A DNA stretch of 64,000 nt, from assembly GCA_021773075.1 (NCBI GenBank), contig JAJFKT010000015.1, positions 109,022 to 173,021 of the forward strand. The letters run 5' to 3'. The notes beneath the pieces were generated by a model. That model saw only the letters and a program-made list of their open reading frames with translations, had not been told where the DNA came from and did no database searches. Of this stretch, positions 37,108 to 64,000 are shown piece after piece (position 1 is the stretch's first letter; each line of letters opens with the position of its first letter). Source of the stretch: Woeseiaceae bacterium. GTDB lineage: Bacteria; Pseudomonadota; Gammaproteobacteria; Steroidobacterales; Woeseiaceae. A program made the translations under genes and the position numbers.

Positions 37108-37746
37108 CTATAACAGGCCGTCCAATCCATCGAGGTCGTTGATTACCCGCCATTGTCCGCCGGTTTTCTCAACCCGGCCCTGCCACTCTTGTAGCCGGCC
37201 AAGGTATTCGCGCGGGTCGATATTGTCCGAACGTAGCTTGGTAACATTGAGCGCAATAACATCAAATCCTTCAAGCGGCACATCGATATCACGTACATAG
37301 CCTTTCTCAAGGTCCTCTTTGAGGTCCGAAAAGATCAGGATCGTCTTGGTGCCGGTGTCTTTTTCGTTGAGAAATTCCACAGCCTGCAACAAGCCGCCGG
37401 TTATATCGGTGTACTGTGCCGGCCTCGCGCTCGCCACAAAATCACTCACTTGTTGTGCAAACAATCGCTTCTGGCGATTGATGGCGCTGGGTCGATCATC
37501 AAAGGATGTTTTGGCGATGATGTCCTTCTCGCTAAAACTCCCGGTATCGATCCGGGCCACAGCAAACGTGTCCGACGCGTCCAGCTTTGAAAGCGTAAAG
37601 CGAATGATCTGCTCGGCCTTGGTGAGTTCCTCGGCGTAAGTTCCGGACGTATCGAGCAGCATGTAAACGCCGTTGTTTCTCGGCGCTGTGTCGCTGCTGC
37701 ATGCTGCGAGGAGTATGAAGAGTGTAAAGAGGATGCCGTATTTCAT
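37108..37746 (-). CDS. VWA-like lipoprotein
   Basis: A 212-residue protein with a lipobox leader (FILLAACSS) and a von Willebrand A-type fold. A metal-site-like DTSGT near the mature N-terminus and a later IFSDLKED strand fit the VWA core; full MIDAS conservation is uncertain. The ATG overlaps the stop of the upstream membrane protein gene (ATGA), so the products are probably made in fixed proportion and act together at the inner membrane or periplasm. The track start at 37836 would lie deep in that upstream gene. Confidence 0.82.
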   Translation of the reverse strand: MKYGILFTLFILLAACSSDTAPRNNGVYMLLDTSGTYAEELTKAEQIIRFTLSKLDASDTFAVARIDTGSFSEKDIIAKTSFDDRPSAINRQKRLFAQQVSDFVASARPAQYTDITGGLLQAVEFLNEKDTGTKTILIFSDLKEDLEKGYVRDIDVPLEGFDVIALNVTKLRSDNIDPREYLGRLQEWQGRVEKTGGQWRVINDLDGLDGLL

Positions 37747-39191
37747 AGTCTCGCTCCCTTCAGGCGCTGGTCGCGTATTGGCTGCGTGCCCTCGGGATAG
37801 CGCGCTCCTGCTTTCGACATGCGTTCTTCGAGCCACAGAGGTACGAATAGCGGCAAGTCATAAATCTGCATCAGGAGCACACCGAGATAGCGAAAAATGT
37901 TGCCAAACAATCGCAGAGACAGGGATATCAAACGCAGCAACGATATCGCCAGTAGCCCGATCACCGTTCTGAGCGAGTGCACAAACGTCTCCAACGGAAT
38001 GGCCACAAACGTCAGCGCAAATGGCAGGATGAATCCCATACCCATCTGCGCAGCTGTCGTGATCCACATGTACTCGCCAGTTGCAGTTGCGCCCACATCG
38101 CCGCGCAGCAGTGCACTCGTCGCAAGTTCGTCGTGCAACAGAACCTCGCGCATGTAGGCGAGTCCCGCCTCGACGCCTGCCAGCAAGAACAGGATCGAGA
38201 ACGTGATGTAAATCATACGTACGCGCGTTTTGTCGGGCAGGGCACCGATCACCGGGAACAGGCGCGTAATGCGCAGCGACTCCATCAGGAACAGACCCAT
38301 CGATATCTCGACCAGAATGATAACGAGGGCGGCGATATCCGCGGTGCGAAAGTTTCCGATCAGGCTGGTGCCGCCGACCATTTCAGCCATCGGTCTTGCG
38401 ATCAGTGAGAAGTTAATGGTTGCACCACCGATCGCAATACACAGCACGAATGCCGAGACGAAGAAATTAACCAGTGATGACGAAGACAGCACGGATATGG
38501 CACGGTCGCGGCCGCCAACGATGTCCTCGTATTCCTGCATGTGCCGGTCGATGGTGACGGAACGACTCAGGAGACTGTCAACGTTTTTGCCGACAGCGGC
38601 CAGTGTCTGCTGGATCTGTCGCCAGTCCGGTCGCATGTGTCGCAGCAGTTTGTGACGCTTCGCGCTGGCCGCGTGATAGGCCGTCATCGCTTCCTTGTTC
38701 GCCTTGATCAGCGACTTGTGAATGTCGCTAAGGATACTGCCGACATGGGCGCGCCCTTCCTTGGCGTCCATTTCGGCCACAGCTTTGACCGCCCTGACCC
38801 AGCCGGGCGGGTCGGGTGGTACATCGACCGCTTCCTGATGGTCCTTCTCGATCCGCCCGATGGATTCACTCAGTGAGCGGTGCAGCGCCGAGTAGTTGGC
38901 AAGGTCTTTCCTCACGGTCTCGTTAATGCGTTCGAACTCACGCTCAATAATGCGTTCTTTCGCTTCCCGGCCAGCCGCAAGCAGGACGTCGCGATTGCGC
39001 ACCGCGAGATTGGCTTCCGACCGCGACACGGCCTTCGAGGCCACGCGGAAGCTGCGGTGCAATCCCTGCGCCGCGGCCTGAATAGTCTTATGTGCAGTAC
39101 TGCGTATGAGGTACAGCGCGGCGATGATCAGAATGATCCAAAGTAGTGCCGACGCAACGGGCCAGGGCGTAATGCTAAGCATGAAATTCAT
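37743..39191 (-). CDS. Large membrane protein with coiled-coil region, VWA partner
   Basis: A 482-residue protein with one N-terminal helix (ASALLWIILIIAALYLI), a long charged helical region of about 200 residues (AVSRSEANLAVRNRDVLL to VTIDRHMQEYEDIV), then about five further membrane segments (LVNFFVSAFVLCIAIGGATINF, IAALVIILVEISMGLFLM, FILPFALTFVAIPLETFV and others). The coiled coil is predicted on one side of the membrane. No family is recognised. It is followed with 4-bp overlap by a VWA lipoprotein, so the two form an unnamed pair. Confidence 0.78.
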   Translation of the reverse strand: MNFMLSITPWPVASALLWIILIIAALYLIRSTAHKTIQAAAQGLHRSFRVASKAVSRSEANLAVRNRDVLLAAGREAKERIIEREFERINETVRKDLANYSALHRSLSESIGRIEKDHQEAVDVPPDPPGWVRAVKAVAEMDAKEGRAHVGSILSDIHKSLIKANKEAMTAYHAASAKRHKLLRHMRPDWRQIQQTLAAVGKNVDSLLSRSVTIDRHMQEYEDIVGGRDRAISVLSSSSLVNFFVSAFVLCIAIGGATINFSLIARPMAEMVGGTSLIGNFRTADIAALVIILVEISMGLFLMESLRITRLFPVIGALPDKTRVRMIYITFSILFLLAGVEAGLAYMREVLLHDELATSALLRGDVGATATGEYMWITTAAQMGMGFILPFALTFVAIPLETFVHSLRTVIGLLAISLLRLISLSLRLFGNIFRYLGVLLMQIYDLPLFVPLWLEERMSKAGARYPEGTQPIRDQRLKGARL

Positions 39192-39398
39192 GATGGTAAC
39201 TCCGCTGTCTTAGTAAGAACCGTAGACCGGTGGTTTTGCGAAGCGCCCTTTCGGACGCCGTGCCTTTTTCATCTTCGAGCGCAGCGTTTCATATTAATGG
39301 GCGGAGTGCCATCGGTATGCGACATAACGGTCTCCCGTTCAGCATCGCTTCAGCATACGTATGGCCAGATAGGCGTTACGTATCAAAGGAGCACGATG

Positions 39399-41832: not shown

Positions 41833-41937
41833 GCCGCGAGTATAACGATTAAACACGTGAATGGGGTGGTGAGCGCTCGGTGCTGCGGGACCTGCCAAAT
41901 TGTCAGTAATTATAGAAATATCAGTGGTATAGACGTA

Positions 41938-41957
41938 TACTGTATATATTCACAGTA
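41938..41957. promoter_or_regulatory. LexA (SOS) box before DUF222-HNH gene
   Basis: TACTGTATATATTCACAGTA fits the gammaproteobacterial LexA consensus (TACTG-(TA)5-CAGTA, core CTGT-N8-ACAG). It begins 44 bp before the GTG start and overlaps a -10-like hexamer TATACT. A matching site precedes the second DUF222-HNH gene at 63120, which supports function. Confidence 0.85.
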
Positions 41958-41981
41958 CACCACTATTGAGCGGAGGGAACC

Positions 41982-43295
41982 GTGTCCACAGCCATCGCAA
42001 TTGTCCAAACTCCAGCAGAATCCATCGCCTCAGCTGCCGAGCAACTCGGCGCTGAGATCACCGAACTTTGCAGCTACATCTACGCTGCCGAAGCTCGTCT
42101 ACTGTCCTTGATTCGCCAGTTTGACCAGAACGAATACTGGGCTGGTCAGGGCCTGTGTTCCTGCGCGCATTGGCTGAATTTCAAATGCGGCATCGGTATG
42201 AACGCGGCCAGAGAGAAAGTGCGTGTCGCACATGCATTGGCCGGTCTGCCCAAGATCAACGAAGCAATGGCCAGTGGCAAGATGAGCTATTCCAAGGTCC
42301 GCGCGATAACGCGTATCGCCGACGAGACAAACGAGGACTACCTCCTGATGATCGCTGAACATGGCACAGCTCATCACGTCGAAAAACTCGTGTCGAAATT
42401 CCGTACGGCGAAGGGCTTGCAGGACGTCGAAATTGCTAACGAGCAATACAACAATCGCGAAGTAACACACTTTTATGATCACGATGGTTGCCTGGTCATA
42501 AGAGCGCGGCTGCCAGCGGAGCAGGGCGCATTGATCGTTAAGGCACTGGAAATGGCGATGGACAATGATTTCGCTGAGACAGAAGTTCTCACAGAGAATG
42601 ACGAGCCAACTCCAATCGCAGCCCGCCGCGCCGATGCTCTGGCAGAAGTTGCAGAAACCTACATGAACAACAACGAATCGTCAGGCTCGACGGCGGACCG
42701 TTATCAGGTCGTAGTTCATGTAGGAGTAGATTCCGAGGCTGAACGTGAATGCGTCAGCCACATTGAAGATGGCCCCGGCGTTACCGCGGTAACGTCGAGA
42801 AGAATTGCCTGCGACTGCACAGTCGTAGCGATAAAAGAAGACGAAAACGGCGAGCCACTCTCAATCGGCCGCCGATCACGGACAATTCCACCCCCAATGC
42901 GCCGTGCATTACGCGCGAGAGACAAAGGTTGCCGCTTTCCGGGCTGTACCAACACCCGATTTGTCGATGGACACCATATAGAGCACTGGGCCGACGGCGG
43001 TGAAACGAGTTTGGACAATCTTGTGCTGCTCTGCCGGCATCACCACCACCTGGTTCACGAGGGAGGCTTTGTTTGCGAGAAGTCTGCGGATGGAAATATC
43101 CAGTTCAGAGACCAGCGAGAGCAGCATTTGGAGCTGTCGCCACAAATGCCGGGCGTTGCTGCGAATGACGACGTGCAGCAATGGCTGGATCGTGAGTTTT
43201 TCGAGGCGAACATCGACAGTGAATCCTGTGCCGCCCGATGCCAGGCCGGGGAACGCATGGATTGGCATGCGGCGGTCGGAAGTTTGTTTTACTGA
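41982..43295 (+). CDS. DUF222 / HNH endonuclease domain protein (copy 1)
   Basis: A 437-residue protein with an N-terminal DUF222 (13E12 repeat) domain (NAAREKVRVAHALAGLPKI, GKMSYSKVRAITRIA) and a C-terminal HNH nuclease domain (GCRFPGCTNTRF, then VDGHHIEHWADGGETSLDNL and LCRHHHHLVH), including the His-Asn-His residues. Start GTG with GGAGGG six bases upstream. A LexA box covers the promoter, so expression should rise on DNA damage. The role of these proteins is unproven; they may be mobile or phage-related nucleases. A paralogue begins at 63120. Confidence 0.92.
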   Translation: MSTAIAIVQTPAESIASAAEQLGAEITELCSYIYAAEARLLSLIRQFDQNEYWAGQGLCSCAHWLNFKCGIGMNAAREKVRVAHALAGLPKINEAMASGKMSYSKVRAITRIADETNEDYLLMIAEHGTAHHVEKLVSKFRTAKGLQDVEIANEQYNNREVTHFYDHDGCLVIRARLPAEQGALIVKALEMAMDNDFAETEVLTENDEPTPIAARRADALAEVAETYMNNNESSGSTADRYQVVVHVGVDSEAERECVSHIEDGPGVTAVTSRRIACDCTVVAIKEDENGEPLSIGRRSRTIPPPMRRALRARDKGCRFPGCTNTRFVDGHHIEHWADGGETSLDNLVLLCRHHHHLVHEGGFVCEKSADGNIQFRDQREQHLELSPQMPGVAANDDVQQWLDREFFEANIDSESCAARCQAGERMDWHAAVGSLFY

Positions 43296-55339: not shown

Positions 55340-56482
55340 CTACTTCAAGCCAATCTCTGTGTTGCTGCGAATTTGATCCAGAAGCTGCGTTTCGCCGGAC
55401 GTGCCGGGAAGAAATTCATCTGTGTTGAATCCGCCGGGCTGAATGTCGACCAATGCGAGAATCTCGCGAAATTTTCCGCGCTTAAAGGACTCAGCTGAAG
55501 ACGATTCTCGGAGATGCAAATACAAGTCTGGCAAGAATCTCATGAATGCTCGGAATCCGTTTGTTCGCGGCAGGATGTTGCCTTTGTCTCTACTAATCCA
55601 ATCGTCATGCCATAGACTGTCAATAGCGTGGAAGTACTCCGATACATTTTTGGCGATCGCCGAGTCCTTCTCGCCGACAAATAAATGCCGAAAGGGCATT
55701 TTTCTTCGTTCATCATCATTTGGAGGTGCTAGCTTCTTGCCGCGAAGTAATCGATCGCGGTCCGTTACTTCGTCACTGGTTATTGTTGGCATGAGGGACA
55801 TGACAAACGCTGCTTGAGTGATGGTCTCGCCAGTCACGCCGGGTGTGGCGCTTCCTAATCTCTTAATCATCCCTTTGAACGGACTCTCTGCCGATCTATT
55901 CAGCGCAACGGCAATATTGTGACATGTTTTCTGAGGACTTCGAGATTTGGAGTAATCAAGAAGGTCGAAAACCAAACTTCGGTTGACCTTAGTTTGCGCG
56001 AGATTGACCGTAGCAAACATGTACGCTTGATCAGCGATATCGGCATCCACGACAATCGTTACCGGTACCTGAAATACTTTCTCCTCGAACGATCGCAATC
56101 CCTCGATTCTATGCTGACCATCCAGCACTTTTGCGATGTCAATAAATGCTATTTCGCGCCGCCCTTTCTTCTTGGCAACACTCGTTAACGTTAACAGCTT
56201 AGATTTTTCGTCGAATGAAGCGCACTCTCCCTCTACCGAAAGGACTATTGAGGTGGGGAACGCGGCATCGATCGTGTTCACAAATTTTCCGATATCCGCA
56301 ACGCGAGTCGGACTAAGTTTTCTTTGAATCCCAATATAGTTGTCAAGCTCTGTTTCGATTCTGCGCATGTCGACAAAAGAAATCTGACATAGGTCACTGT
56401 GATTCATAACGCCGACATAAAAATCGCCAATCGGTTGGGTCATTTTTATCGCATCAATAGTTATCTCGCCATGTTCCATCAC
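55340..56482 (-). CDS. DGQHR domain protein (DndB-like)
   Basis: A 380-residue cytosolic protein with the family motif VLDGQHRIEGL near residue 120 and the surrounding pattern (PVTIVVDADIADQAYMFATVNLAQTKVNRSLVFDLLD) seen in DGQHR proteins and in DndB, a regulator of DNA phosphorothioate modification genes. DndC, DndD and DndE are absent, so it is not a standard Dnd locus. Its start overlaps the stop of the upstream membrane protein gene by 4 bp. It is the last gene of the five-gene minus-strand island operon. Confidence 0.88.
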   Translation of the reverse strand: MMEHGEITIDAIKMTQPIGDFYVGVMNHSDLCQISFVDMRRIETELDNYIGIQRKLSPTRVADIGKFVNTIDAAFPTSIVLSVEGECASFDEKSKLLTLTSVAKKKGRREIAFIDIAKVLDGQHRIEGLRSFEEKVFQVPVTIVVDADIADQAYMFATVNLAQTKVNRSLVFDLLDYSKSRSPQKTCHNIAVALNRSAESPFKGMIKRLGSATPGVTGETITQAAFVMSLMPTITSDEVTDRDRLLRGKKLAPPNDDERRKMPFRHLFVGEKDSAIAKNVSEYFHAIDSLWHDDWISRDKGNILPRTNGFRAFMRFLPDLYLHLRESSSAESFKRGKFREILALVDIQPGGFNTDEFLPGTSGETQLLDQIRSNTEIGLK

Positions 56483-56991
56483 TGACCTCCTTCATCGCTA
56501 AGGTCTATCGACGATCCACTTTCGGCACGAGGTTGTTCGAGCATACGATCCATACGATATTGAAAGACTTGCGTTATGTACCAGGTGAGAATGGCGACGA
56601 TGTACGCGGCAATTGCAAAATAGAATACGTATTCCTTATCTACATCTGGATTCGTCTTCGACACTGCGTAGACGATGGCGGTGGAAAGGAGTAAACCCCA
56701 GATTGTCCACTCCAAAGCAAAGAAAGCGCTGCTATGTCGTCGAGCTCGCCAATGAAAAACCATGTATGTAATCGAAGGAGCAATGATTGCCGTAACATAT
56801 AGAAAGACTTCTGTCGGAATGAAGAATTCTGACCATGATTTTCCCAGGCCGGACAATGACTTGTAGCCATCATAACCATTTACTCCGCCGACAAGCCATA
56901 TCGATAAAATCGGAATTAGCGAAGATATGGACCAAATTGCAACGGTTTCCTTTGCCGCTTTGTAATAAGGTGTTTCGCGAAAATTGCGCAT
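56479..56991 (-). CDS. Four-helix membrane protein next to DGQHR gene
   Basis: A 170-residue protein with four hydrophobic segments (TVAIWSISSLIPILSIWLV, VFLYVTAIIAPSITYMVF, WTIWGLLLSTAIVYAV, YFAIAAYIVAILTWYI) and a short acidic cytosolic tail. No family is recognised. Translation is coupled by a 4-bp overlap to the DGQHR gene. In defence operons such small membrane proteins often act as effectors that disturb the membrane; here that is only inference. Confidence 0.72.
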   Translation of the reverse strand: MRNFRETPYYKAAKETVAIWSISSLIPILSIWLVGGVNGYDGYKSLSGLGKSWSEFFIPTEVFLYVTAIIAPSITYMVFHWRARRHSSAFFALEWTIWGLLLSTAIVYAVSKTNPDVDKEYVFYFAIAAYIVAILTWYITQVFQYRMDRMLEQPRAESGSSIDLSDEGGQ

Positions 56992-57026
56992 CAGATCCTC
57001 ATATAATAATTTTGGAGTGATTCAGT

Positions 57027-57839
57027 TCACCGCCAACACTGAATAACCAATTCGGATTGGAGTCCTCGGTACTCGCTTGATGCCGCAATTACACTCGACC
57101 GACTCACCCGCTCCTTAGAAAATCCACGGTAGAGTTTTCGAACGGTCGAATGGTCCGCGTTCGTAATCAAGACTTTGGCGCCTCTTATCGTAGCGTTTTC
57201 CACAGAATCGCGAAGGCGCAATTGATCTTGCCATGAAAAAATCTTCTCATTGTATTTTAGGAATCCGTTCAGATTGTGATTTACCGTGTACGGTGGATCA
57301 ACGAAGACAAAGTCTCCCTTCCCCGCGGCGCCGATGGTTACATCGAAATCGCAAACGCGTAGATCCGCATTTTGGAGCACCTCAGCAGTTTGGCGAAAAT
57401 CATCGGATGGCAGTAGAGCAGATTTCTTGCTGCCGATTGGAACATTGAAGTCCCCATTCCTGTTTACGCGGTAAAGTGCATTCCAGCATGTTCTATTCAA
57501 ATAGATCGTACGAGAAGCTCTCGCGAATTCTGACCTAGGGACTGTTGCTCGAACGTCGTAGAAATAGGATTTCGAGTGATTCTGGTCGTGCACTCGAAGA
57601 TACCGCCATACTAAATCGGGTCTTTTCCTTAGCGCGGTATATGCGTTAATTAGTTCACCGTTGATGTCTGAAAGAACGGCGCGTTTCGGAGCCAAGAAAA
57701 AATAGACAGCAGCGGAGCCAAGAAAAGGCTCGTAATAGCTTCGAAACCTTTTCGGAAAGAGATGAAAATGATCTTGGACAAACCAACGCTTGCCACCCGC
57801 CCACTTTAGAAATGGTGCAATTTCTTTCGCTTGATTCAT
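57027..57839 (-). CDS. Dam-type DNA adenine methyltransferase (D12 class)
   Basis: N6-adenine methyltransferase of the M.DpnII/Dam alpha class, about 270 residues. S-adenosylmethionine binding is indicated by FLKWAGGKRW and YYEPFLGSAAV; the catalytic motif IV is DPPYTVNHN. The family usually methylates GATC, but target specificity cannot be read here. Two possible ATGs (57851 or 57839) differ by four residues. It sits 35 bp upstream of the four-helix membrane protein gene and has no obvious cognate endonuclease on this strand. Confidence 0.93.
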   Translation of the reverse strand: MNQAKEIAPFLKWAGGKRWFVQDHFHLFPKRFRSYYEPFLGSAAVYFFLAPKRAVLSDINGELINAYTALRKRPDLVWRYLRVHDQNHSKSYFYDVRATVPRSEFARASRTIYLNRTCWNALYRVNRNGDFNVPIGSKKSALLPSDDFRQTAEVLQNADLRVCDFDVTIGAAGKGDFVFVDPPYTVNHNLNGFLKYNEKIFSWQDQLRLRDSVENATIRGAKVLITNADHSTVRKLYRGFSKERVSRSSVIAASSEYRGLQSELVIQCWR

Positions 57840-57960
57840 ATAGCACCCCATCCCCTATTCGGGCATTGTAGCCCACATATATCAACGATGCTTGAGATGT
57901 AGTTCTCGTAACGAGAGACTGTTGGTTTGACCATGAGTCGCCCACGTTGGTAGGGTGGCC

Positions 57961-58635
57961 CTACTGCTCCGGCAATTGATCGCTATTCGCTGCCTCGGCA
58001 TCCTCAGGCTCGTCTTGGCTCTCTGGAGCTTGAATGGGCAGTTCGATATCCGGCGCATCGCTAGCACTAATACTAGTTTCATCTGGTTGTTGAACTTGAG
58101 TAGTGCTGAACTCTTGGGTCTCCTTATTCTTTGCTTCCTCGGTCATAGGCGTAGGCGTGGTTACGATTAGCAGCAGTGCGAACAGTACAATTAACGCACC
58201 GCCGACTCCGTAGAAAGAATCCATTTTATCCTTCGAATGAAACGTTTTGCCAAAGAGATCGAAAGGACTTTCTTTGCCAATAGATTTGGTGAGTGAAAGT
58301 TCCGGCAACACATCCTCGTATTTTTCTTCGATTGCCTGGCCATGATATATAGAGCCCATTAATAGACGGTGATACCAAAACCGATCCATGAAGTACAACG
58401 CAAGCCAGAACACAAGTGCTGCCACAAGCACGTAGACACTAATTGGAATGACAATACTTCCAATTGATGCAGTAAGACCCTCTCTATATGACAAAGCAGC
58501 TGCGCCGAGAAGAGCACCCAAACCACCAACGGCGATGCTGCGAATTTTCATTTCGATGTCGTTAAAGTGTTTTTGAACATCAATCGTCGCTTTCCAGATT
58601 TCTACTATTGCGCCAAGTTCAGTCTTTTCGCTCAT
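57961..58635 (-). CDS. Membrane protein with two to three helices, SLATT-like in layout
   Basis: A 224-residue protein. An N-terminal helix (LGAIVEIWKATIDVQKHFND) leads to two adjacent membrane segments (IRSIAVGGLGALLGAAALSY, VYVLVAALVFWLALYFMDRFWYH), a cytosolic middle part, a third segment (GGALIVLFALLLIVT) and a long acidic, Glu/Pro/Gln-rich tail. The order of a helical stretch plus a double helix resembles SLATT-type 2TM effectors of antiphage systems; this is a layout comparison only. The ATG at 58635 overlaps the HAD gene end by 17 bp. Confidence 0.72.
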   Translation of the reverse strand: MSEKTELGAIVEIWKATIDVQKHFNDIEMKIRSIAVGGLGALLGAAALSYREGLTASIGSIVIPISVYVLVAALVFWLALYFMDRFWYHRLLMGSIYHGQAIEEKYEDVLPELSLTKSIGKESPFDLFGKTFHSKDKMDSFYGVGGALIVLFALLLIVTTPTPMTEEAKNKETQEFSTTQVQQPDETSISASDAPDIELPIQAPESQDEPEDAEAANSDQLPEQ

Positions 58636-59515
58636 CTTTTTTTCCTGTCGCGAATACGAAGTGGCCGAGCAATTCTGAGAATCCGTTTTCAAGCACAATG
58701 CTGGGCGTGACTTCGTCACGAGTCAATTTACGCTCAGTCGCTACTTGCTCGTCCGTCCAATGTGTCACTTCCCGTAATAGTTCATAGCTCTCTCGCGTGT
58801 GAGCTTCGCCGTATGCGGCGAGCACGTCATCAACGCCGGCATGCTGTGCCATCGCGACATCCTTAAATAGGCTATCGCCGACATAGACAGCATCGCTTTG
58901 GCTGACGCCCATGTCAGACACAATGTCTTGCAAGATCTGCGGATTCGGTTTGACTTCGCCGGCAGGAGTGTTCCTATGAACCGTCCTTTCCAGACTCTTG
59001 TATTCGGACTGAAATAGCTCTTCCCTATCGCGATTCAGGTTAGCCGGAATATCGTGGTCGGCGGGCGAGTAAATATAGTGGAGTAATCCATCAAGACCCA
59101 ATCGCGAGATTCGGTAGCTAGTATAGTAAGCCATCGATTCGGTATAACCGACTATTGTTCCTCCCGCCGCGGCAATCCCGGTTAGCGTATCAACAACTCC
59201 CGGGTACACCTCCAAAGTCTGTTCGCGTGCATCTCGGAACGCCTGGACGGCCTTTTGATAAGTTCGACGCGTACCTTCTGGGTCACTATGGTTCTGCAGG
59301 CTCGGGAGTTCCTCAATCAGAAATGCATATTCCGACGTGCCGTGGAGTTGATGAACAGACTTTATCTCCTTTACCAACTGAGAGCGGGGCATCTTACTCG
59401 TGGCCACGAGCGTATCCAGCATGGCTGAAAAGGACTGATACCAAATCTCAACCCAGTCAAACAGCGTATTGTCTAGGTCTGTAATTAGTAGCGTCTTTGG
59501 AATTGGTGTACTCAT
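58619..59515 (-). CDS. HAD superfamily hydrolase, first gene of island operon
   Basis: A 298-residue haloacid-dehalogenase-type phosphohydrolase. The nucleophile motif is ITDLDNTLFDW, the second motif TGIAAAGGTIVGYTES, the Lys motif AGEVKPNPQILQ and the acidic pair VGDSLFKDVAMA. All four catalytic motifs appear intact. It is soluble, with no signal peptide. Gene order makes it the promoter-proximal member of a five-gene unit with two membrane proteins, a Dam-type methylase and a DGQHR protein. Its substrate, a phosphate ester or nucleotide, is unknown. Confidence 0.9.
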   Translation of the reverse strand: MSTPIPKTLLITDLDNTLFDWVEIWYQSFSAMLDTLVATSKMPRSQLVKEIKSVHQLHGTSEYAFLIEELPSLQNHSDPEGTRRTYQKAVQAFRDAREQTLEVYPGVVDTLTGIAAAGGTIVGYTESMAYYTSYRISRLGLDGLLHYIYSPADHDIPANLNRDREELFQSEYKSLERTVHRNTPAGEVKPNPQILQDIVSDMGVSQSDAVYVGDSLFKDVAMAQHAGVDDVLAAYGEAHTRESYELLREVTHWTDEQVATERKLTRDEVTPSIVLENGFSELLGHFVFATGKKDERKD

Positions 59516-59591
59516 CCGAGCGTGCTGTCCTTGCGGGCTATATTCTTGGTGAGAGACTTACGTCTGCCAGAGAATTTGTAACAATTGGCCG

Positions 59592-59606
59592 CTGGTAGTC
59601 TACCAG
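59592..59606. promoter_or_regulatory. Perfect 15-bp palindrome between the divergent island operons
   Basis: CTGGTAG-T-CTACCAG has 7-bp perfect arms around one central base. It lies about 77 bp upstream of the HAD gene start and 300 bp upstream of the methyltransferase. No T-run follows, so an operator is more likely than a terminator. Confidence 0.5.
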
Positions 59607-59872
59607 TAGCTCGTAGTTATCTGCCGGCCTATATCAGTCGCCCTGTCAGATGTTATTCAGATGAACTGGATCGGTCTTAGTTACTAGATACCCCTTAGCC
59701 GTATTGTTGGCGGTATTGCCGTCGGAAGCTGACCGATTCAGGAACGAATCTACTACCTAGAATCATCGCTTAACCAAGGACGAGGATTGACCGATGATCT
59801 AGTTGCGATGAGACGTGCTCGTGATCAAGGACCTCTATGGAGTCGGCCGCTATGGCTCGCGCTGGGAATAAA

Positions 59873-59888
59873 TGATATCGTGATATCA
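59873..59888. promoter_or_regulatory. 16-bp palindrome just upstream of the C5 methyltransferase
   Basis: TGATATC-GT-GATATCA is a perfect inverted repeat 21 bp before the methyltransferase ATG. C5 methyltransferases of the SsoII type bind such operators through an N-terminal extension to repress their own gene; this enzyme also has an N-terminal extension, so the site is a good candidate. Confidence 0.55.
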
Positions 59889-59909
59889 ACTCGTCCCAGA
59901 GATCGCAAA

Positions 59910-61190
59910 ATGACAAAAGATGTCCTGATTCGTGACTTAACAACTGAAGATCAAAACTGGCTAAATGACGCGAAGCCCGCTGGCATTTCCCAAGTGGAAT
60001 TCCTCCGCTCGGTATTGCGGGAAGCGAGGGATAATTCATTGCAGCCGAGTCTCTTTGATTTCGCGATTGAGCCTAAGACCGTTTACGGAAACGTGCCGTT
60101 CAAATTTATCGATCTGTTCGCCGGCGTTGGCGGATTTCGTTCGGGGCTTACTGCCTTGGGAGGCAAGTGCGTATTCACCAGTGAGTGGGATAAATTCAGT
60201 AACAAGACATACCAATCCTGGTTCGGGGATGAAGATGTTCATACTGGCGATATTCGTGAATTGGACATCCGCACTGAGATCCCGGACCACGATGTCCTCT
60301 GCGCAGGTTTTCCTTGTCAGCCGTTCTCATTGGCAGGCGTGTCGAAAAAGAACTCTCTCGGTCGCAGCCATGGATTCGAGGATGAAACTCAGGGAAACCT
60401 TTTTTTCAAAATCATGGATATTGTCGATAAAAAACGGCCACCGGTTCTGTTCCTTGAGAATGTTAAGAACCTTAGATCTCATGACAAGGGAAATACGTGG
60501 AAAGTAATTCAGGATTCTTTGATCGAACGTGACTACTCGGTATTTAGTCGCGTTATCGATGCTCGTGGCTGGGTTCCTCAACATCGAGAGCGCATCTTCA
60601 TTGTTTGTTTTGATAAACAAATCTTTGGACGAGAAGACGAGACTAATTTCCAGTTTCCAGAACCGCCGGAAGGGGAACCGCTTACGTTGAGCTCTATTCT
60701 GGAGACCACGGCGCCGGATAAGAAATACATGCTTTCCGACAAACTGTGGAGCTACTTACAAGCCTACGCGGAGAAACATAGAAAGAAAGGTAATGGATTC
60801 GGATATAGCCTGTTCACAGGTAAGGATGTGGCCCGCACACTGAGCGCGAGGTATCACAAAGACGGCTCGGAAATCCTGATCAAACAGAAGGGCTGGAGGA
60901 ACCCAAGAAGATTGACGCCTCTCGAGGCGAAACGGCTAATGGGTTTTGTCGACAAATATGCTGAAATGTATGGGCATGAGGATGGTTTTCCTCAGGTTGT
61001 GTCAGACACACAGGCGTATAGACAGTTCGGCAATGCAGTCGTACCACTGGTAGTAGAGGCTATCGCGCGTGAAATAGTACACACTATGTCGCAGGCGATA
61101 ACTACAGCGGAAAACAGCTGCCTGCTCAAAGGGCGAGTTTTTGCATCCGATAAGAATGGACGTACACGACAAGGAAACGCGCAGCCGTAA
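59910..61190 (+). CDS. Type II DNA cytosine-5 methyltransferase
   Basis: Modification enzyme of the restriction-modification system, about 427 residues. Ordered C5 motifs: I (FIDLFAGVGGFRSGL), IV with catalytic Cys (AGFPCQPFSLAG), VI (FLENVKN), VIII (QHRERIFIV), X (YRQFGNAVVP). A roughly 55-residue N-terminal extension (LTTEDQNWLNDAKPAGISQVEFLRSVLREA) precedes motif I and could bind DNA for autoregulation. ATG at 59910 is preferred over the track start at 59787. The 3' end overlaps vsr by 35 bp. With a Vsr enzyme and an MvaI-type nuclease, the target is probably a CCNGG-type site, which is inference. Confidence 0.95.
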   Translation: MTKDVLIRDLTTEDQNWLNDAKPAGISQVEFLRSVLREARDNSLQPSLFDFAIEPKTVYGNVPFKFIDLFAGVGGFRSGLTALGGKCVFTSEWDKFSNKTYQSWFGDEDVHTGDIRELDIRTEIPDHDVLCAGFPCQPFSLAGVSKKNSLGRSHGFEDETQGNLFFKIMDIVDKKRPPVLFLENVKNLRSHDKGNTWKVIQDSLIERDYSVFSRVIDARGWVPQHRERIFIVCFDKQIFGREDETNFQFPEPPEGEPLTLSSILETTAPDKKYMLSDKLWSYLQAYAEKHRKKGNGFGYSLFTGKDVARTLSARYHKDGSEILIKQKGWRNPRRLTPLEAKRLMGFVDKYAEMYGHEDGFPQVVSDTQAYRQFGNAVVPLVVEAIAREIVHTMSQAITTAENSCLLKGRVFASDKNGRTRQGNAQP

Positions 61191-61617
61191 TATGTCCCGC
61201 ATTCGCGGGACGAATACAAGACCAGAGCTTCAGGTAAGAAGAGTTTGCCATGGGCTGGGATTCCGATACCGGCTTCATCGAAAAGATCTCCCAGGAAAAC
61301 CGGACCTTGTCTTTCCCAAATATGGGGCCGTTGTATTTGTGAACGGTTGTTTCTGGCATGGCCACGATTGCCATCTGTTTAAAACGCCAGGCACTCGTAC
61401 GGAGTTCTGGACGGAAAAAATTGCCGGAACCAGGGCGCGAGATGAGTATCAGATCGCGCAGCTCGTTGACCTCGGATGGAGAGTGATGACCATTTGGGAG
61501 TGTGCGTTGAAAGGGAAGGGTAGACTGGATACTGACGAGACTGGTAGCCGAATCTCGGAGTGGTTGCTTTCGGGGACCGTGGTCTCAGAGGTTCGGGGGA
61601 GGATGAATGGGGCCTGA
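61156..61617 (+). CDS. vsr: Very short patch repair endonuclease (Vsr)
   Basis: Nicks DNA at T:G mismatches that arise when methylated cytosine deaminates, so that they are repaired to C:G. The 153-residue protein has the family start TRSRNMSRIRGTNTRPEL, the nuclease region KPDLVFPKYGAVVFVNGCFWHGHDCH with the catalytic and zinc residues, and the later LGWRVMTIWECAL. It overlaps the methyltransferase gene by 35 bp and the endonuclease gene by 11 bp, so all three are translated together. Confidence 0.95.
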   Translation: MDVHDKETRSRNMSRIRGTNTRPELQVRRVCHGLGFRYRLHRKDLPGKPDLVFPKYGAVVFVNGCFWHGHDCHLFKTPGTRTEFWTEKIAGTRARDEYQIAQLVDLGWRVMTIWECALKGKGRLDTDETGSRISEWLLSGTVVSEVRGRMNGA

Positions 61618-62953
61618 TCTTGCAACCTTGAAGAAGATGATGTCAGACCACGGCGTCCAAAGACTTCTGTTCAAGCGGCTATCACCCAATGACAACAGCA
61701 AGAATCAGCCTTATTTCGGGCCTGATCTTACGTCTCTCGGTTTTATTCCTACTGGGGAAATAAGAGGGACACCGACCACTTCGGATAAGCCGAAGAAGTC
61801 GCAGGTGAAGTTCCTGGCATCTTTGGATTTTTATTGGTTGGGTGACGAAGGAGAACTCGCGTCGGCGCCGAATGCCAAGCTCATTTTCTATCCTCAATAT
61901 CCTGAAGTGCGGTTTTCTGGTTTTCTTCTTGGATGCGCTTCAGGACCAAACGAGCTGATGGACCCTAAAAAACGTGGCAGGGAAGAAGGGCGGATATTAT
62001 TTCTCGGGATTAGTCAGGATGGAAGAATTATCGGGTATCTGGCCCCTGCAGATTCTGAAATAGCGCGGTACCTGACCGGCACATGGGATTTTGCATCAAT
62101 TGGAGTGTTTGAAGAAGTACCGACAGTCTATGCGGCGGCACCGTCTGACTCGAGATCGGAGCTACTTCGGGAACTGCGGCGTATCAGTGCGAAGGGCTGG
62201 ATAGATTCAAAGCGATTGAAGGCGGACGGTTCGACAATCGCATACAGTGCGCCGAATGGGGGCGGCTTCACTCTCGAAGCCGAATTTGGGATTACCCCGA
62301 ACGGTTATTCGGAGCCGGACTTTCTTGGCTGGGAGCTCAAACAATACGCCGTGCGTAATCTGGATAAACCGTCGGGAGGGCGAGTTACGCTGATGACGCC
62401 AGAGCCGAACGGCGGCTTCTATAAGGATCGAGGAGTCGAAGAATTCCTTCTCAAGTTTGGATACGCGGATACAAAAGGGCGAGATCGCCTTAATTTCTGT
62501 GGGACGCATAAGGCTGGCGTGAAGCACCAAAGAACGGGACTTACTTTATCCATGCCGGGGTTTGATGAAGAAAATACCAAGTTGATCGACCCGTCTTCGG
62601 GCCTGTTTCTTGTTAACGACGATGGCGAACCCGCAGCGACATGGAGTTATGCCTCGATTCTCGACCACTGGAAAAGGAAGCATGCTCAAGCAGCGTATGT
62701 TCCATCTACTCGGCGTCGGGATCCGAAGTTGCAGTACCGATTCTCGAGTAACGTCGATCTTGGCACAGGCACAGGCATGTCACGATTGCTTGGTGCCATA
62801 TCAAGCGGGACAGTATTCTACGATCCAGGAATAATCATGAAGGATGCGTCTGGCTCACGACGCCCGATCAAACGTCGAAGCCAATTTCGAGTAACTGCGC
62901 CGAATTTGCATACCCTCTATGAATTGTTTGAGCGAGTAGTCCTCGACGAATAA
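61607..62953 (+). CDS. Type II restriction endonuclease, MvaI/BcnI family, with N-terminal extension
   Basis: Restriction enzyme of the system. The C-terminal part holds the MvaI/BcnI signature GGGFTLEAEFGITPNGYSEPDFLGWELKQY, which includes the catalytic Glu, Asp and Lys of a PD-(D/E)xK-like nuclease, followed by a catalytic-domain tail. At 448 residues it is nearly twice as long as MvaI or BcnI; the first 190 residues (LLFKRLSPNDNSKNQPYFGPD onward) form an extra beta-rich domain that may add DNA recognition. The ATG follows GGGAGGA. Expected target family CCNGG-like, not readable from sequence. Confidence 0.92.
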   Translation: MGPDLATLKKMMSDHGVQRLLFKRLSPNDNSKNQPYFGPDLTSLGFIPTGEIRGTPTTSDKPKKSQVKFLASLDFYWLGDEGELASAPNAKLIFYPQYPEVRFSGFLLGCASGPNELMDPKKRGREEGRILFLGISQDGRIIGYLAPADSEIARYLTGTWDFASIGVFEEVPTVYAAAPSDSRSELLRELRRISAKGWIDSKRLKADGSTIAYSAPNGGGFTLEAEFGITPNGYSEPDFLGWELKQYAVRNLDKPSGGRVTLMTPEPNGGFYKDRGVEEFLLKFGYADTKGRDRLNFCGTHKAGVKHQRTGLTLSMPGFDEENTKLIDPSSGLFLVNDDGEPAATWSYASILDHWKRKHAQAAYVPSTRRRDPKLQYRFSSNVDLGTGTGMSRLLGAISSGTVFYDPGIIMKDASGSRRPIKRRSQFRVTAPNLHTLYELFERVVLDE

Positions 62954-63058: not shown

Positions 63059-63094
63059 TTGATTTACAACAAACTACTGGTTATAATAACAGTA
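63059..63094 (+). promoter_or_regulatory. Promoter with LexA (SOS) box before DUF222-HNH copy 2
   Basis: TTGATT is followed after 17 bp by a consensus -10 TATAAT. The -10 lies inside TACTGGTTATAATAACAGTA (63075-63094), a 20-bp LexA-type site (core CTGG-N8-ACAG, TACTG/CAGTA ends). It ends 25 bp before the ATG. The same kind of site covers the promoter of copy 1 at 41982. Confidence 0.82.
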
Positions 63095-63119: not shown

Positions 63120-64000
63120 ATGAAGCCAACAAAATCACCCGAAAATCGTCTTCTCTCTATTGACGAACTCGATCGCGACATCGTCAATCTCGCCGCCCGA
63201 ATCAACGCGGCTACCTACGAGTTACTCGTGCTCATTCGCCAATTCGACGAGCGTGCCGGCTGGCTGAAATGGGGCCTTGGGAACTGTGCCGAGTGGCTGC
63301 ATTATCGCTGCGACCTCTCCATGAATGCCGCGCGTGAAAAAGTCCGTGTGGCACACGCGCTCAAGACTTTGCCCGACATCGCAGCCGCATTTGCAACGGG
63401 CGACCTGTCGTATTCCAAAGTTCGAGCGATGACACGTGTTGTTGTTAATAATTCGGAACTCTTGTCGTTTGCCTTAAAGACAACGACAGCACGTGTCGAG
63501 GAACGCTGCCGGGAGTTGCGTTGCGGCACGGTGGATTCCCTCGATGGCGCGCAGCGTGCGTTTGCCAATCGATCACTGCGCGTCAGCCGCAATGCCGAAC
63601 GGGGAACGATGACCATCACCATCGAACTCCCGATAGAGACCGGCGAGCTGGTGGCCAAAGCGCTCGACAAGGCACGCGATGATTCGACGTCACAATTGGA
63701 GTTTGTCGATGACTCCTTCTCAGCCCGACAGGCTGATGCGATGGTATCAATGGCGAGTGGGTATCTGTCGGGTAATGCAGAGCGATCGTGCAATTCCTCG
63801 CGTAACACGTCGGACGACTACCTGGTGACAGTCCACGTCGATCAATCGGCACTCGCTACCGGCAACGGTCGCTCAAACCTCCCCATCGAAAGTGTCAAAC
63901 GACTGTGTTGTAATGGTCATGCGGTGGTTCTCGGTGAAGATGAGAATGGCGAGCCATTGAATATCGGTCGCAAGACCCGAACCGTGCCAACGGCCATCAA
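63120..64000 (+). CDS. DUF222 / HNH domain protein (copy 2, cut by window edge)
   Basis: Paralogue of the protein at 41982, not listed in the ORF track because it runs off the window. Starts ATG (MKPTKSPENRLLSIDELDRD) after an AAGGA site. The DUF222 region matches copy 1 closely (YELLVLIRQFDE, NAAREKVRVAHALKTLP, LSYSKVRAMTRV), and the pre-HNH segment VVLGEDENGEPLNIGRKTRTVP parallels VVAIKEDENGEPLSIGRRSRTIP. The HNH domain itself should lie beyond the edge. LexA box in the promoter. It lies about 166 bp after the endonuclease gene and borders the island. Confidence 0.9.
   Translation, partial: MKPTKSPENRLLSIDELDRDIVNLAARINAATYELLVLIRQFDERAGWLKWGLGNCAEWLHYRCDLSMNAAREKVRVAHALKTLPDIAAAFATGDLSYSKVRAMTRVVVNNSELLSFALKTTTARVEERCRELRCGTVDSLDGAQRAFANRSLRVSRNAERGTMTITIELPIETGELVAKALDKARDDSTSQLEFVDDSFSARQADAMVSMASGYLSGNAERSCNSSRNTSDDYLVTVHVDQSALATGNGRSNLPIESVKRLCCNGHAVVLGEDENGEPLNIGRKTRTVPTAI

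Follow-up and report, generated by a model that had tools for sequence, protein, structure and literature searches.

Which regulator controls the DUF222-HNH nuclease gene that starts at position 41982 of the window (the whole 64,000-nucleotide stretch analysed, from a Woeseiaceae genome), and what does this control say about the role of its product? DUF222-HNH genes are widespread and often multi-copy, and control by LexA would be a concrete handle on the function of a large family. The initial annotation had proposed that a LexA box drives this gene, here called copy 1. Judging from the site itself, the lexA gene of the host, the boxes shared with other genes, the conservation in relatives and the phylum-specific operators, we believe that LexA control of copy 1 is very probable.

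The LexA consensus of E. coli is TACTGTATATATATACAGTA. The LexA (SOS) box that forms the operator of copy 1, TACTGTATATATTCACAGTA at 41938-41957, differs from it at 2 of 20 positions, which agrees with the nearly exact fit claimed earlier, and it is the sole site of this kind in the 64 kb window even when 3 mismatches are allowed (shuffle expectation 0.00). Between the box and the GTG start of the intact gene (41982-43295, + strand, 437 aa) lie 24 nt, in which a Shine-Dalgarno-like GGAGG can be read from the sequence (41972-41976, + strand). The box had also been said to overlap the promoter, and the -10 hexamer of a putative sigma-70-like promoter, TAGAAA-17-TATACT (41913-41941, + strand), does overlap its left part. 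This promoter matches the consensus weakly, and three such sites were found in the upstream stretch of copy 1 against 1.2 expected, so that it is weak as sole evidence. Copy 2 (63120-64000, + strand, extending past the end of the window and of the contig) likewise has a box before it, at 63075-63094, whose sequence TACTGGTTATAATAACAGTA departs from the core at one position. In the source genome (G000), the start of contig C33 (L290) repeats the last 141 bases of contig C7 without a difference in its own first 141, and copy 2 therefore probably continues into C33. One more copy, 5'-truncated and 93% identical, was observed at C33:3726.

A genome without LexA would have spoken against this control. 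The source genome (4.09 Mb in 37 contigs, completeness 95.8, contamination 6.96) has lexA once (TIGR00498, 242 bits against a cut-off of 111), and two boxes of the same kind, TACTGTATATAATCCCAGCA and TACTGTGAATACATACAGGA, lie directly upstream of it. Over the 16 bases of core and spacer, TACTGTGAATACATACAGGA, read on the opposite strand, differs from the copy 1 box at one. Such boxes were also found upstream of recA, of a UvrD/PcrA-like helicase gene (two boxes) and of a PA0069-type radical SAM gene. By computation, copy 1 thus has what marks a member of the LexA regulon, namely a host-type operator over its promoter in a genome whose lexA and recA carry like boxes. The box type and the position over the promoter are those of E. 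coli-type SOS genes such as recA, lexA and uvrD; unlike these, DUF222-HNH does not belong to the core repair genes and codes for a multi-copy nuclease of patchy distribution. Across the genome, the 8-base core CTGT-N8-ACAG by itself shows no enrichment, with 38 sites compared with 42 for the control, in which the pattern is reversed. A match to the core therefore counts for little by itself, and the case has to be decided by conservation. When the A+T-rich extended form CTGTATATATATACAG was searched with up to 3 mismatches allowed, 9 sites were found, against 1 for the control, and the copy 1 site stands out by this extended form, by its position and by its conservation in relatives.

Two paralogues of the source genome show other upstream states. 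In L004 (G000:C19:473275-474042), the HNH catalytic core has been removed by an in-frame deletion, and no recognisable box lies upstream, where a -10-like TATAAT and one half-site persist. Upstream of L002 (G000:C23) there is an inverted repeat, CTGTTTT-N7-AAAACAG, which consists of LexA-like half-sites at the wrong spacing.

DUF222 was found in 24 of the 61 family genomes sampled. Of 64 listed places, 49 were counted, the other 15, which were left out, being 5'-truncated genes, genes at the edge of a contig or second pieces of one gene. The stretch from -200 to -60 relative to the domain start was scanned for boxes and compared with 200 dinucleotide shuffles and five control stretches of the same loci. 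The exact core CTGT-N8-ACAG was found upstream of 17/49 genes (shuffle mean 0.05, maximum 1), and the box at no more than one mismatch upstream of 28/49 (shuffle mean 1.76, maximum 6), while the control stretches gave 0 exact matches and 1-5 at up to one mismatch. The initial annotation had named a consistent lack of the box in relatives as a ground for refuting it, and the box was found in the same place at these 28 homologues. The family rows are related and represent few lineages (8 clusters at 70% identity), and an exact box was present in 5/8 of these clusters and, counted by genome, upstream of at least one DUF222 gene in 13/22. Between the end of an exact box and the first in-frame ATG or GTG lie 18-31 nt, a narrow range. 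When the scan was extended to -250, TA preceded the core in 24 and followed it in 12 of the 29 boxes at up to one mismatch; these flanking bases are outside the searched core, yet they are as in the E. coli consensus. The putative LexA box is common at family DUF222 genes and not universal, because about two in five homologues (21/49) had no match in the scan even at one mismatch.

The lexA genes of the family carry the same type of box. In 28 of the 30 family genomes searched lexA was found, and 28/30 lexA upstream stretches contained an exact box of this type, often in tandem. CTGG variants, which are common upstream of DUF222, are also present at lexA of some family genomes, and in some copies of one genome (G013) the box spacer is 7 rather than 8. 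Six copies of another genome, G041 (L037, L064, L065, L068, L069 and L070), retain the palindrome TACTG[GA]ATATTCANTCAGTA, which departs from CTGT-N8-ACAG and is unlike the canonical boxes of the G041 lexA; it may be a LexA site that has drifted, or else another protein may bind it.

The initial annotation had suggested a search of other genomes for LexA boxes upstream of DUF222-HNH genes, and host-type operators were found in two further phyla. We scanned 80 DUF222 loci of named genomes from Actinomycetota, Proteobacteria, Acidobacteria, Gemmatimonadota, Rokubacteria and Myxococcota, of which 77 had at least 120 nt upstream and several are genes also in the family survey. CTGT-N8-ACAG was found at gamma- and betaproteobacterial loci and GAAC-N4-GTTC at actinobacterial loci, at similar positions. 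The lexA promoters of Gemmatimonadota (L199-L208, L211, L214 and L317) contain TTCGG direct repeats, many of them 6-spaced, which are a candidate LexA operator of this phylum; the motif was seen at lexA first and next noticed in three DUF222 promoters there. One locus, L152, titled Gammaproteobacteria bacterium SB0662_bin_11 and counted under Gamma/Beta in the named-genome set, belongs to G568 of the Gemmatimonadota sample, whose lexA has Gemmatimonadota-type repeats.

The larger phylum samples are not those in which the motifs were seen, with a few genomes recurring. For Actinomycetota, 28 of 30 loci from a longer list were used (2 were dropped as 5'-truncated), and for Gemmatimonadota 46 places from a longer list (26 of 30 loci and 20 more), of which one with 88 nt upstream was dropped, leaving 45. 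Exact cores of CTGT-N8-ACAG, GAAC-N4-GTTC and TTCGG-N6-TTCGG were found at 17/49, 1/49 and 0/49 family genes, at 0/28, 13/28 and 0/28 actinobacterial genes, and at 0/45, 0/45 and 13/45 Gemmatimonadota genes, respectively. The Fisher p values for phylum-specific operators were 3e-8, 4e-9 and 7e-7, to be read with the rows not being independent; by clusters at 70% identity, an exact host-type operator was present in 13/27 actinobacterial and 6/13 Gemmatimonadota clusters. The control stretches of the phylum samples gave 0 exact matches, except for the Gemmatimonadota motif at -700 to -400 (2/43). The matching operator was also found in the lexA promoters of many of the actinobacterial and Gemmatimonadota host genomes. 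In Tomitella, Pseudonocardia, Geodermatophilus and Microlunatus, no GAAC-N4-GTTC site was found within 250 nt of the lexA match, and the true lexA start of these hosts may be further upstream.

The host-type operator is far from general in these phyla: 11/28 Actinomycetota and 30/45 Gemmatimonadota DUF222 genes had no host-type match even at one mismatch, and no host-type box was found at the DUF222 promoters of Rokubacteria, most Acidobacteria and Deltaproteobacteria. For example, the Rokubacteria lexA promoters (L210, L212, L213 and L218) have TCAAC-N4-GTTGA-like palindromes, and this motif was found in 0/4 DUF222 promoters of the same genomes. Among Acidobacteria, 1/8 loci had an operator like that of its own lexA promoter. 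Two single cases stand outside the counts: TTACGC-N6-TTACGC at the Holophagales locus L172, which resembles the lexA promoter there, and CTGAAC-N4-GTTTAG at the Myxococcota locus L155.

On a quick protein tree, with long branches among the actinobacterial rows, the proteins largely group by phylum, the group label changing 16 times where 9 is the minimum possible, and the operator state needs at least 35 changes on the same tree. By these counts, losses and gains of the predicted operator are frequent within phyla, and its kind differs between phyla, which suggests that, when the specificity of LexA changes, SOS control is kept or acquired anew. LexA control of DUF222-HNH looks selected and re-wired across phyla. 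Because the host's own type of LexA operator is found in three phyla and in three architectures, damage control appears to be under selection rather than an accident of one lineage. As DUF222 promoters repeat LexA motifs, they could also be used to infer such motifs where these are unknown.

Two other readings of the box itself have to be weighed against LexA control. An A+T-rich promoter might resemble a LexA box by chance; the core overlaps a -10-like sequence, and in the genome the 8-base core alone turns up as often as its control. We reject this for the whole family, because the shuffles never gave more than one exact match against the 17 observed, the control stretches gave none, and the operator switches with the phylum, so that a chance match is hardly credible. 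Alternatively, the DUF222 protein might regulate its own gene, with its ParB-like domain (described below) binding the palindrome as an operator. A ParB-type helix-turn-helix usually binds palindromes, and the six G041 copies that keep their own palindrome are in line with this. Against it, the operator of each phylum is the motif found at the lexA of that phylum, including the direct repeat of Gemmatimonadota, and a protein family with a site of its own would not be expected to change that site along with LexA. We rejected autoregulation as a general explanation on this ground and regard it as improbable for the box of copy 1 as well.

The protein of copy 1 matches DUF222 (PF02720, E 6.7e-20, 72.1 bits against a gathering cut-off of 24.4) and HNH (PF01844, E 2.3e-6, 28.1 bits against 21.4). 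In the HNH nuclease core (residues 313-359, 42918-43058, + strand), C317, C322, H331, H332, N346, C351, H355 and H359 are present, and all core columns that are invariant in two alignments of relatives are retained. The HNH part structurally matches IscB, McrA, TagI and Cap5. For the N-terminal half of DUF222, a whole-protein predicted model (mean pLDDT 82.6) and a separate model of residues 14-158 (mean pLDDT 95.7) were compared with known structures by VIA-align, and both matched the DNA-binding domains of ParB, Noc, Spo0J and KorB. With the N-terminal model, the top 13 structural rows were all ParB, Noc, Spo0J or KorB (Z 10.1-6.1 over 94-117 residues), and the next, unrelated row had Z 4.6. 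The ParB/Noc/KorB-like part of the predicted fold covers residues 35-143 (about 32-146), encoded at 42084-42410 on the + strand. Foldseek gave no match at E <= 0.001 with either model, and a PDB sequence search with the N-terminal profile gave nothing useful. The Pfam family HTH_ParB (PF17762) was matched by 10/42 members (best E 0.0016) and was the sole family besides DUF222 matched by more than one. The window protein scores 13.4 bits, below the gathering cut-off of 22.6, and the DUF222 N-terminus is therefore said to resemble this domain rather than to be a member of it. Like ParB, Noc and KorB proteins, DUF222 would have this fold, with a weak profile match; unlike them, it has more DUF222 sequence and an HNH nuclease after the ParB-like region. 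On the predicted models, the product of copy 1 is probably a DNA-binding nuclease, and the ParB-like region suggests the kind of DNA recognition to expect in DUF222-HNH proteins.

The initial annotation had also linked these genes to mobile elements. One homologue in the same genus (G051) has the identical 20-mer at a different place and has lost its middle part, and the unit shared with copy 1 starts 46 nt before the box and ends with the stop codon (41892-43295, + strand). Paralogues in G010, G013, G033 and one group of G540 mostly share only the operator, promoter and ORF, the common sequence beginning about 30-80 nt before the box and ending near the stop codon, and the flanks being unrelated. 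In some G041 pairs the common sequence reaches as far as about 375 nt upstream of the domain, and much longer upstream stretches are shared within a second group of G540, which has no operator. The shared unit contains no transposase, and no obvious terminal repeats were seen in the boundary alignments. The left neighbour of copy 1, an acetyl-CoA hydrolase gene, scored well in 9 of 61 genus genomes, its own included, and gave weak partial matches in 2 further ones. Beside this gene, nothing in the regions of G051, G047, G651 and G043 matches the window to the right of 41859, and therefore copy 1 is not at that place in these genomes; none of them presents a clean empty site, because the right flank differs too. 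The link to mobile-element induction is thus partly supported, the copies behaving as dispersed single-gene units, while movement itself was not observed in these comparisons.

The distribution is patchy. Phylum-wide, 4/398 genomes match the DUF222 family, 2 of them above the cut-off. In Actinomycetota, DUF222 was found in 27 of the 60 genomes sampled, the highest number in a single genome being 24 places. Relatives of the window protein occur in 1 of 50,697 annotated phage records and in 2 of 72,556 plasmid records; a prophage or plasmid origin of copy 1 is unsupported, its relatives being nearly absent from both.

The closest known systems are mycobacterial. According to published reports, the 13E12/HNH genes of M. 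tuberculosis belong to the LexA regulon and form a repeat family with mobile-element character (PMC4181829, PMC5005354), the mycobacterial LexA box is MKWMTCGAAMRYWTGTTCGA, and a role in mismatch repair has been proposed for these genes (both PMC4181829). REP13E12, HNH endonuclease and DUF222 are listed together in another report (PMC10589994). In a further study, mitomycin C induced five putative HNH endonucleases, and this induction depended on RecA (PMC8151990). Copy 1 is like the 13E12 family, by these descriptions, in being an HNH nuclease of a repeat family with LexA regulation and mobile-element character. It differs in its proteobacterial host and in its CTGT-N8-ACAG operator rather than MKWMTCGAAMRYWTGTTCGA, and the same control logic extends beyond 13E12 to Gemmatimonadota with a direct-repeat operator. 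In a full-text literature search, which most subscription papers were outside the reach of, neither LexA boxes at DUF222 genes beyond mycobacteria nor a relation between DUF222 and ParB was reported.

With good confidence, we propose that copy 1 encodes a LexA-repressed, damage-induced, DNA-binding HNH nuclease whose operator, promoter and ORF travel as one unit. In the undamaged cell, a LexA dimer on the box would block RNA polymerase. DNA damage would activate RecA, on which LexA would cleave itself, and the nuclease would then be produced along with RecA, LexA and the UvrD/PcrA-like helicase, whose genes have the same box. Within the N-terminal half of DUF222, the ParB/KorB-like helix-turn-helix may serve to grip DNA, which the C-terminal HNH domain may cut. 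The operator, the promoter and the single ORF would travel together to new chromosomal places. We infer repression, induction, binding, cutting and movement from the comparisons above, and the LexA operators indicate when to seek DUF222-HNH activity, namely after DNA damage.

If LexA control is real, the nuclease could still serve other ends. It might be an SOS suicide effector that shreds its own chromosome at high damage, which we consider unlikely. A harmful product would be suited by a tight SOS promoter, and the paralogue L004, which is without the HNH core, is also without a recognisable box. In one report, over-expression of the Mycobacterium smegmatis HNH nuclease MSMEG_1275 (compared here as an HNH nuclease and not as a DUF222 protein) is lethal and DNA is cleaved at multiple sites, and its knockout eases death; only one of the five over-expressed HNH proteins was lethal, however (PMC9416677). 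The presence of up to 24 copies in one genome would also be odd for a suicide gene. A function in DNA repair, for instance in mismatch or recombination repair, is somewhat less likely still. Such a role is the one proposed for the 13E12 genes (PMC4181829), and the box is common to recA and the helicase gene here, but the patchy occurrence (24/61 family genomes, and the few matches phylum-wide), the variable copy number, the truncated copies and the dispersal better suit an accessory element.

The proposed LexA-repressed nuclease is possibly a homing-like single-gene element. It is like HNH homing endonucleases in having HNH, a DNA-binding part and dispersed single-gene units; no intron, intein or cognate empty target was seen, and on present evidence it is not a member of that group. 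As a more general speculation, which we hold tentatively and think rather doubtful, DUF222-HNH genes would be SOS-timed homing-like mobile elements with their own LexA operator. They would cut DNA at sites chosen by a ParB-type domain during RecA-driven recombination and be copied into the break, and the operator would re-evolve in each new phylum to suit the LexA of that host.

Two other features of the window were observed. A c-di-GMP-I riboswitch (39192-39274, - strand, 62 bits against a gathering cut-off of 35) lies directly upstream of a 482-codon membrane-protein ORF (37743-39191, - strand). A restriction-modification cluster (55340-62953) adjoins DUF222-HNH copy 2 and comprises a DndB/DpdB-like gene (55340-56482), a D12 adenine methylase (57027-57851), a C5 cytosine methylase (59787-61190), Vsr (61141-61617) and an MvaI/BcnI-type endonuclease (61607-62953).
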